From assembly GCF_016065055.1 (NCBI RefSeq), contig NZ_CP065856.1, forward strand, positions 2,169,836 to 2,233,835: 64,000 nt of DNA, in the 5' to 3' direction. This DNA comes from Halosimplex litoreum (GTDB taxonomy: Archaea > Halobacteriota > Halobacteria > Halobacteriales > Haloarculaceae). Made by a program: the position numbers and the translations under genes. Every line of letters starts with the position of its first letter. The stretch's first letter is position 1. The notes beneath the pieces are model-generated. The model ran no database searches, was not told the origin of the DNA, and saw nothing but the letters and a program-made list of their open reading frames with translations. Below, piece after piece: positions 4,329-50,853 of the stretch.

Positions 4329-4504
4329 ACACGGTGTCGGTCGCTCCGTGGTAAGTGCTTTTCCCAGACAGTTCGACGTCGGTCAGTTCCGTGCGAGTCG
4401 AACGGGTGTCTCCGTAAGCTATCTCGTGAAATGAAGCCGAGTGGGCGTGGCCGCAGCCGACAGCAGGCGACGAAAACCCTCGCCGCGTTCGATCGCAACT
4501 GCTT

Positions 4505-4950
4505 CAACCGCAGGAGACAGCGAGCGCTGAAAGCCCTCGACCCGCTCGCTACGAGTTGGAACGACCGCACTCGACGGAGACAGCGAGCGCTGAAAGCCCT
4601 CGACCCGCTCGCTACGAGTTGGAACGACCGCACTCGACGGCGACAGCGAGCGCTGAAAGCCCTCGACCCGCTCGCGGTCGCTGAGCGACATATCCTCGCG
4701 GCCGGAGGCCGCTTCGGATAGGGGTCGCTCAGGCGACTAAACTGGACGCGAGCGCGTCTCGCCCGTTCAGTCCACCAGGACAGCACGGCACCGTGACCAC
4801 ACCGTCCCGCACAGCACCGCAGACGGCCTCGAACCTCCCCAGCCTCTTGCGATGCTCGCAAGCTGCGCTTCTCATCCCTCGCACGGTATTGGTCGCGCGC
4901 ACGAGAGCGCGCGACAGCGCGCGCCACCGCACCGCAACCGCCTACTCGCT
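4505..4950 (+). repeat. Dispersed modular repeat element, copy A
   Basis: Parts in order: a 63-bp tandem block; a hairpin in which CTGAGCGAC (4681-4689) pairs with GTCGCTCAG (4724-4732) and TATCC (4691-4695) with GGATA (4716-4720); the block TTCAGTCCACCA (4766-4777); a small TTGCGA/TCGCAA hairpin; the block CTCATCCCTCGC; and a 9-bp stem GTCGCGCGC/GCGCGCGAC (4892-4900 with 4907-4915) closing the loop ACGAGA. The same parts in the same order and orientation occur near 12.5 and 50.5 kb. No protein is encoded. It could be a structured RNA, a non-autonomous mobile element or a bound DNA site. Confidence 0.8.
4513..4677 (+). repeat. 63-bp tandem repeats (copy A), about 2.6 units
   Basis: Units start at 4513, 4576 and 4639, exactly 63 bases apart. 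Each contains GCTGAAAGCCCTCGACCCGC and GACCGCACTCGACGG around a 12-base centre (ACGAGTTGGAAC). The last unit runs into the hairpin part of the element. The two complete units are almost identical, so the duplication is recent or kept uniform. Confidence 0.9.
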
Positions 4951-5053
4951 CAGCCGCGTCGAACGCGACCGAGCCCGGCACTCGTCCGCCGAGGAACCGG
5001 GCGACCCGTTCCGCCACCCGCAGCTTTTTGCGAGTGCCGGTACCCCAACGCAC

Positions 5054-12528: not shown

Positions 12529-12750
12529 GACAGCACGCGTTGAACGCCCTCGACCCGCTCGCTAGCAGTCGACTCGACCGCACTCGATGGAGACCGCACG
12601 CGTTGAAAGCCCTCGGCCCGCTCGCTAGCAGTCGACTCGACCGCACTCGACGGCGACAGCACGCGATGAAAGCCCTCGACCCGCTCGCTAGCAGTCGACT
12701 CGACCGCACTCGATGGAGACCGCACGCGTTGAAAGCCCTCGGCCCGCTCG
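12529..12750 (+). repeat. 63-bp tandem repeats (copy B), about 3.5 units
   Basis: Units start at 12529, 12592, 12655 and 12718, exactly 63 bases apart. Units 1 and 3 resemble each other (GACAGCACGCG) and so do units 2 and 4 (GACCGCACGCG), so a two-unit block of 126 bases was duplicated. The 12-base centre differs from copy A (AGCAGTCGACTC here). Confidence 0.9.
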
Positions 12751-13090
12751 CGGTCGCTGAGCGGGATATCCGCGCTCTCCGCACCGCCCGCGCGGATAGT
12801 GCCCGCTCAACCGACCACGCAAGCGCGAGCGGGCGGTCGGCTCCGCCGACCGCCACAGTCCGTGGCGGCTACGCCGCCACGCGCGCCTCGCCCTTTCAGT
12901 CCACCAGGACAGCACCGCGACTGCCCCGCACAGCACCGCAAACGGCCACATACCTCCCCAGCCGATTGCGCTTCTCGCAAGCTGCGATGCTCATCCCTCG
13001 CGCGATTTCGTCGCGCGCACGAGAGCGCGCCAGCGTCAGAGCAATCTCTGACGGCCCATCGGAATCGCTTGCGATTCCGAGACGACAGCA
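12529..13090 (+). repeat. Dispersed modular repeat element, copy B
   Basis: It has the same order of parts as copy A. The first hairpin pairs TGAGCGGG (12758-12765) with CCCGCTCA (12802-12809) and TATCCGCG (12767-12774) with CGCGGATA (12791-12798). TTCAGTCCACCA is at 12895-12906. The third hairpin is GCGCGC-ACGAGA-GCGCGC (13013-13030). Copy B also carries extra perfect hairpins absent from the others: GTGGCGGC/GCCGCCAC near 12873, GTCAGAG/CTCTGAC (13035-13052) and GGAATCGC/GCGATTCC (13061-13078). Confidence 0.8.
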
Positions 13091-13115
13091 CGCGCCAGTA
13101 CGGAAAATCAGCCAG

Positions 13116-50369: not shown

Positions 50370-50853
50370 GAGATCGAGCGTGTTCGGTTCGTGTTGTGAG
50401 TTGAGTGAGAGTTGCAACAGATTATATCGTGAAATAAATGCAAAGGATCGCGACCGCAGGAGACAGTTCATCACCCGCTGTCTCCTCAGATGATGAAAGC
50501 CCTCGGCGCGCTCGCGGTCGCTGAGCGACATATCCTCGCTCGCTGTGCTCGCTCGGATAGGGGTCGCTCAGACGACTAGATGAACGCGAGCGCGTCTCGC
50601 CCGTTCAGTCCACCATGGCCGCACGGCACCGCAGACAGCCACGACCCTCCCCAACCGATTCGCTCGCTTCGCTCGCTCATCCCTCGCACGCTCTGTCGCG
50701 AGACGAGACTCGCGACAGCGCGCGCCGACCGCACTGTAATCGCTCACTCCATCACCTGTACTGACCGTTCCATCGAGCGAAGCGGACGAGTCCCGATGGG
50801 GGTCCGGATCGACGATGCCCCCGGTTTCCACTCGTGGGGTCGTCCGACCCGGC
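50370..50853. other. Intergenic region holding repeat element copy C
   Basis: 484 bases between two converging genes. Left of the repeat is an AT-rich stretch (ATTATATCGTGAAATAAATG near 50421), promoter-like in a GC-rich genome; a similar TCGTGAAAT precedes copy A. Confidence 0.75.
50451..50750 (+). repeat. Dispersed modular repeat element, copy C
   Basis: The shortest copy, without the 63-bp tandem block. It starts with GACCGCAGGAGACAG, where AGGAGACAG (50458-50466) pairs with CTGTCTCCT (50478-50486). Then come TGAAAGCCCTCG, the first hairpin (CTGAGCGAC 50521-50529 with GTCGCTCAG 50563-50571; TATCC with GGATA), TTCAGTCCACCA (50604-50615), CTCATCCCTCGC, and the third hairpin CTGTCGCGAG-ACGAGA-CTCGCGACAG (50693-50718). 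Confidence 0.8.

Follow-up and report, generated by a model that had tools for sequence, protein, structure and literature searches.

Among bacteria, small repeats with many intergenic copies and conserved hairpins are familiar as the ERIC, BOX and REP/REPIN families, which have other hosts and other ends than the haloarchaeal element described here. Closer to it are members of the IS6 family, which produces target duplications of 8 bp and for which two MITEs (227 and 336 bp) are listed (PMC7986276), and in which the place of the archaeal members is disputed (PMC6807381). These two MITEs (MITEHarch3 and MITEBth2 in ISfinder; PMC7986276, PMC6807381) resemble our element in having IS6-type ends and no transposase, and resemble its copies in other genera in their length of 200-350 bp, MITEHarch3 being haloarchaeal by name; their descriptions mention neither a covarying core nor a class-wide spread. 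MITEHarch3, known here by its description only, may itself belong to the family described here; the copy of the element on a DL31 plasmid is degraded. Archaeal IS6 insertion sequences of the Halobacteria clades share with the element the terminal repeat GTGTTCAGATAAG and duplications of ~8 bp, but encode a transposase of 212-221 aa and have an interior unrelated to that of the element. The MITEs, PATEs and SMRs of Haloquadratum (PMC3119063) are likewise short non-coding mobile repeats, some with hairpins, in up to tens of copies; the SMRs are set apart by their description, which gives them no duplications and ends unrelated to transposons, whereas the repeats of our element match IS6 and duplications are present.

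In the literature on haloarchaeal repeats, cassettes and structured RNAs we found no description of a covarying core with swappable modules. IS6-type MITEs are a known kind; the class-wide covarying core with swappable modules appears to be new, though the element itself may be listed already. Transposase-less elements usually keep their ends alone; here the interior is the best-conserved part and covaries across an archaeal class, and the element lends itself to testing whether a fold within a MITE is under selection.

Architecture of the element

The hairpin P2 lies at 4677-4737 of the window (the whole stretch of 64,000 nucleotides from Halosimplex litoreum that was analysed), has one bulge of a single A and another of GGG or GTG, and forms in all three window copies (A, B and C). 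Its 61-nt stretch folds with -36.4 kcal/mol (z = -5.0 against dinucleotide shuffles), and no shuffle was equally stable. Two further pairings had gone unnoticed in the preliminary description of this DNA: GTCG (4677-4680) pairs with CGAC (4734-4737) and extends P2, and a long stem, P1 (4654-4676 with 4747-4769), closes the whole P2 hairpin, its strands TGAAAG...GACCCGCTCGCG and CGCGAGCGCGTC...TTCA being interrupted by an internal loop, CCCTC/TCGCC. The hairpin is real; it does not stand alone as an element but belongs to a larger fold within a mobile element. The features are listed below; the strand of the element is the one weakly favoured by the strand test described later, and the core motif of the preliminary description lies on the plus strand.

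4382..4953, minus strand: copy A, element with approximate ends (comparison with other copies; covariance-model match on the minus strand, 131 bits)
4472..4665, plus strand: four tandem left arms GAAAxCCCTCG at 4472, 4529, 4592 and 4655 (direct repeats)
4654..4676, plus strand: left strand of P1, with TGAAAG, internal loop CCCTC and GACCCGCTCGCG (pairs with 4747-4769; covariation)
4677..4689, plus strand: left strand of P2, GTCG and CTGAGCGAC (the latter at 4681-4689; folding and covariation)
4690..4690, plus strand: single bulged A (two alignments)
4691..4720, plus strand: P2 inner stem TATCC/GGATA (4691-4695 and 4716-4720) with a variable apical hairpin (folding; pairing in 74 cores)
4721..4723, plus strand: 3-base bulge GGG, GTG in copy B (sequence, alignment)
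4724..4737, plus strand: right strand of P2, GTCGCTCAG (4724-4732) and CGAC (covariation)
4747..4779, plus strand: right strand of P1, CGCGAGCGCGTC, loop TCGCC, (G)TTCA and the conserved tail GTCCACCAGG (class-wide motif)
4893..4914, plus strand: terminal hairpin TCGCGCGC ACGAGA GCGCGCGA (sequence, pair counts)
12542..13096, minus strand: copy B (left arms 12542-12741, P2 12753-12815, right core end 12908)
50380..50768, minus strand: copy C (left end GTGTTCGGTTCG at 50380, right end CCTGTACTGACC at 50755-50766)

The left arms of copy A are duplicates of the 5' arm of P1, spaced 57 and 63 bp apart. One to seven such arms, 57 or 63 bp apart, stand in tandem to the left of the hairpin, 57 bp being the usual spacing within the genus (91 of 112); to its right follow, in order, the tail GTCCRCCAGG, a conserved linker and the terminal hairpin. 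Four left arms and extra inserted hairpins are present in copy B, the left terminus of which was not found, and several copies carry additional hairpins inserted into hairpin loops. Where both ends could be set, the element is 376-690 bp long in this genome, and complete copies in other genera measure about 203-384 bp; there, the P1 frame encloses either the P2 hairpin or a different inner module. No shared coding frame was identified in or across the core, and the flanking genes lie outside the element. The steps between tandem left arms (4472-4665 and 12542-12741 in the window, and other copies) are 57 and 63 bp, both multiples of 3, and rarer lengths that mostly are so too. One copy (L037:3142-3220, minus strand) is without the whole inner hairpin, P1 alone remaining.

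Compensatory changes in the paired core

Two pairs of the outer stem of P2 differ on both sides between copies A and C and copy B, as the preliminary description had stated (CTGAGCGAC/GTCGCTCAG against TGAGCGGG/CCCGCTCA, the strands of copy B lying at 12753-12765 and 12802-12815 with a GTG bulge); the pairs of copy C (50517-50529 and 50563-50576) are identical to those of copy A. Also borne out were the inner stem TATCC/GGATA, the bulged A and the G-rich bulge (GGG or GTG) as features common to all three window copies, and an alternative pairing, GTCGC/GCGAC with a TGA loop, which copies A and C can form and which is diminished in copy B.

Among 28 distinct copies from the same genome, 94.1% of cells were paired (29-43% with slid partners), 10 of 35 pairs were doubly changed (shuffled 4.6, sd 1.1, 0/500), and doubly changed cells numbered 36 against 10.3 in shuffled data. 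The 74 cores from Halosimplex and many other genera were 95.1% paired, with 21 of 31 pairs doubly changed (shuffled 10.8) and 165 doubly changed cells, compared with 41.2 when shuffled and 18-27 with slid partners; the position of the inner stem TATCC/GGATA was paired in 99%. Across 90 distinct class-wide P1 stems, 534 cells were Watson-Crick, against 197 with the arms shuffled. Compensatory change is therefore secure, since double changes lie well above the shuffled controls in both the own-genome copies and the 74 cores, and above the slid controls in the latter, and further copies did not show changes on one side only. Some differences look more like exchanges of complete hairpin modules than like stepwise substitution in pairs: one orthologous site carries, in three species, three different and equally good terminal hairpins.

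Unpaired positions are conserved besides the pairs. The single bulged A is kept in nearly all aligned copies, and CCTGGYGGACTGAAAGGGCGAG and CGAGGGCTTTC are nearly invariant class-wide. The recurrence of the same imperfections (A bulge, G-rich bulge, 5x5 loop) at the same places across genera argues that the fold, rather than simple identity of the arms, has been maintained. This bears on a reading in which the repeats are DNA-level palindromes, kept by gene conversion or hairpin-templated repair together with hairpin swaps, and in which no folded product is selected. Such processes could account for hairpins inserted into hairpin loops, for terminal hairpins wholly different yet perfect at one orthologous site, and for the copy L040 (3067-3193, minus strand), where an exact reverse complement of the right arm stands in place of the left P1 arm and the conserved internal loop is erased, which looks like arm-to-arm conversion. 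The terminal hairpin, with 227 Watson-Crick cells, one A.C and no G.T, has no wobble on either strand and fits DNA palindromes as well as RNA. However, arm-to-arm conversion would erase the P1 loop and the A and G-rich bulges that persist across genera, and A.C and G.T mismatches are unequal in frequency (see below); we regard palindromes maintained in this way as possible but doubtful.

Terminal repeats and IS6 partner elements

Among 116 loci in other genera, both GTGTTCAGATAAG-type ends were found in 9, the right end in 18 and the left end in 12, with none in the reversed control. There, ~33-37 nt separate GTGTTCAGATAAG from the left arm that follows it, and ~42-53 nt separate the core from CTTATCTGAACAC; an architecture of terminal repeat, 37 nt, left arm, core, 42 nt and terminal repeat recurs in new loci. 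When element-rich genomes were searched for these ends, elements of 689 bp that share them but lack the core also came up. Such 689/690-bp partner elements have 13-bp ends identical to GTGTTCAGATAAG/CTTATCTGAACAC and encode a DDE transposase of the IS6 family (NF033587 transpos_IS6, E 7.5e-56, score 189 with a cut-off of 125 bits; also PF13610); intact 690-bp IS6 relatives with the same 13-bp ends occur in one Halosimplex genome (G006) and related ones in another (G003). Direct repeats of at least 7 bp flank, in other genera, 8 of the 20 elements with a core (shuffled flanks 0.57) and 6 of 10 IS6 partner elements (shuffled flanks 0.62), and in core elements and insertion sequences alike these repeats (~8 bp) are placed ~4 nt outside the terminal repeats.

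The element thus combines a short length, no transposase gene and IS6-type ends with 8-bp duplications, the latter in other genera. Insertion sequences of the IS6 family, 690 bp long, have the same ends and ~8-bp duplications, and the best reading of the element is therefore an IS6-type MITE without a transposase; the hairpin is probably part of the conserved core, with a covarying fold, of this gene-less element. We infer that an IS6 transposase moves the element in trans. In the Halosimplex copies the ends have drifted to the GTGTTCRGTACRG type, which keeps ~8 of the 13 bases of the IS6 repeat; no clear target duplications were seen around these copies, and the genome under study (G000) yielded a 30%-identical fragment of the transposase but no intact IS6 gene of this kind. 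The window copies are for these reasons tied to IS6 through their homology with copies in other genera rather than directly, and the lack of an intact transposase suggests that the copies in this genome are probably fossils that were inherited. Many intergenic repeats of haloarchaea are in this way linked to one transposase family.

Hairpins in the class Halobacteria also recall the PATEs described in Haloquadratum (PMC3119063), and movement as single-stranded DNA by an IS200/IS605 TnpA would, through folding of that DNA, explain a strand asymmetry. PATEs are without terminal inverted repeats or target duplications (PMC3119063), whereas our element has both and its repeats match IS6; this reading is largely refuted by the ends and duplications, and we consider it extremely improbable.

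Distribution and mobility

The Halosimplex genome under study holds ~60 copies (63 places with the covariance model, ~42 in the first search), and copy number among related genomes ranges from 0 to ~60. The motif TCGCCCKTTCARTCCRCCAGG was found in 53 of 292 Halobacteria genomes (reversed control 0), so that at least 30 of the 76 genera sampled share the core, and in a scan of ~85,000 species all matches listed were haloarchaeal by name. Strict filters were applied in the class-wide covariance-model search, whose counts are therefore minimum values; with this model, annotation would reach up to tens of intergenic regions in a genome, in no fewer than 18 of the 46 genera sampled. The element lies between genes in all four arrangements of flanking genes and is not bound in cis to one gene type. 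It also occurs on plasmids of Halorussus, Halovenus and Haloarcula. A bias in gene orientation, strong in this genome with a right neighbour on the minus strand in 32 of 41 cases, was dropped (41 of 74 in other Halosimplex genomes, p 0.42), as was a phage origin (no match among 50,697 phage records).

Four orthologous sites were compared among Halosimplex species. The site of copy C is empty in five of six relatives (G002-G006), and site L031 in G004, G005 and G007. At L032 the element is present in G000, G006 and G007 but missing from G004 and G005; its presence in several species indicates that some insertions are old and inherited, and its terminal hairpins at this site, which differ entirely between species and are still hairpins, indicate the exchange of whole modules. 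In G007 the orthologue of the copy C site (L270) holds an additional ORF, membrane-protein-like, around which no ends of the element could be recognised. Paired elements in opposite orientation lie close together at L048, L055, L062 and L156, and in the first three of these the CCAGG tails point towards one another across a gap of tens of bases.

The orthologous sites of L017 and L031 in relatives (L247, L252, L253 and L248) have ends of one kind around differing content: G007 has a lipoprotein-like ORF, G006 a small membrane-protein ORF, G002 a second repeat described below and G003 an IS6 transposase gene. A connection with the deletion-coupled insertions known from Haloquadratum is possible, and other content between similar ends is what would be expected of an integron-like cassette or deletion-coupled-insertion slot with the core as its recombination site. 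The shared end is a transposon terminal repeat, and the core is internal rather than at the cassette borders; with the same kind of ends on IS6 elements, an integron-like origin of the ends was set aside, and a cassette or slot of this kind is very unlikely.

Strand and nature of the folded core

The preliminary description had assumed a transcript of the plus strand, and on this point the mismatches lean weakly the other way. Isolated mismatches on the plus strand numbered 72 A.C against 19 G.T in Halosimplex (shuffled 96 vs 61; Fisher p = 0.005) and 19 A.C against 5 G.T class-wide (shuffled 20 vs 15; p = 0.10), and the minus strand of the 74 cores showed 56 G.U against 18 A.C (shuffled 97 vs 62; p = 0.04); since the three sets overlap and copies within them are related, the asymmetry is a lean and not proof. 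Counted by columns, the preference was 11 vs 8. The G.U/A.C asymmetry would thus weakly favour the minus strand. The minus strand folds better, but this difference in folding energy was dropped as evidence, because it stems only from the G-richness of that strand, shuffles showing nearly the same difference (-6.1 vs -7.9). Read from the minus strand, the purine-rich internal loop GGCGA/GAGGG could form tandem G.A pairs. No Rfam family matched in the window, with a chance-level hit only in 4400-5000.

Tentatively, and with more doubt than confidence, we propose that the core is a structured RNA of Halobacteria, read from the minus strand, which has a function of its own and was spread as a MITE by an IS6 transposase. 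If so, it would be a previously unrecognised RNA, in which P1 and its conserved internal loop enclose inner hairpin modules that can replace one another, and might control IS6 transposition or stabilise or end neighbouring transcripts. Another reading holds that the copies are dispersed functional non-coding RNA genes (minus strand, ~130-400 nt) acting in trans, the IS6-type ends merely carrying them as cargo. The class-wide conservation of unpaired positions, with CCTGGYGGACTGAAAGGGCGAG and CGAGGGCTTTC nearly invariant, the compensation of 21 of 31 pairs, the excess of G.U on the minus strand and the purine-rich loop with its possible G.A pairs would all suit such genes. Set against them are the range of 0 to ~60 copies among related genomes with presence or absence at orthologous sites, a search by eye that recognised no promoter or terminator, and the Rfam result; we consider RNA genes acting in trans rather unlikely.

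Proposed mechanism

For the gene-less IS6-type MITE, our preferred reading, the following course may be envisaged. An IS6 transposase would recognise the terminal inverted repeats (GTGTTCAGATAAG, or the drifted GTGTTCRGTACRG in Halosimplex) and insert the element between genes, duplicating ~8 bp of target. Between the ends, P1 with its conserved 5x5 internal loop would close over an inner hairpin that can be exchanged, either P2 or another module, with pairing maintained by compensating changes and by swaps of whole hairpins between copies. The MITE label leaves the conserved core unexplained, as MITEs need no conserved interior. The core may have been selected because it folds in a single-stranded nucleic acid of the element's life cycle, most likely RNA transcribed from the minus strand, and the folded core might allow insertions beside genes to be tolerated or might modulate transposition; selection on the folded core, the minus-strand RNA and this role form the weakest part of the explanation.

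Neighbouring repeats

A second Halosimplex repeat, even more abundant than the element, has the form TCCGCGCG-hairpin-GGTTCACCG-hairpin-CTTTTTCACCCATGTTTTTGCC-hairpin-GGGAAAAAGATGG and occupies several hundred candidate places per genome. It often adjoins the element, for instance at the right flanks of L010, L013, L014, L025 and L033. The right-end motif CCTGTACTGAGC also occurs without the core at L260 and L262, beside genes for secreted or lipoprotein-like proteins and adjoining the second repeat.
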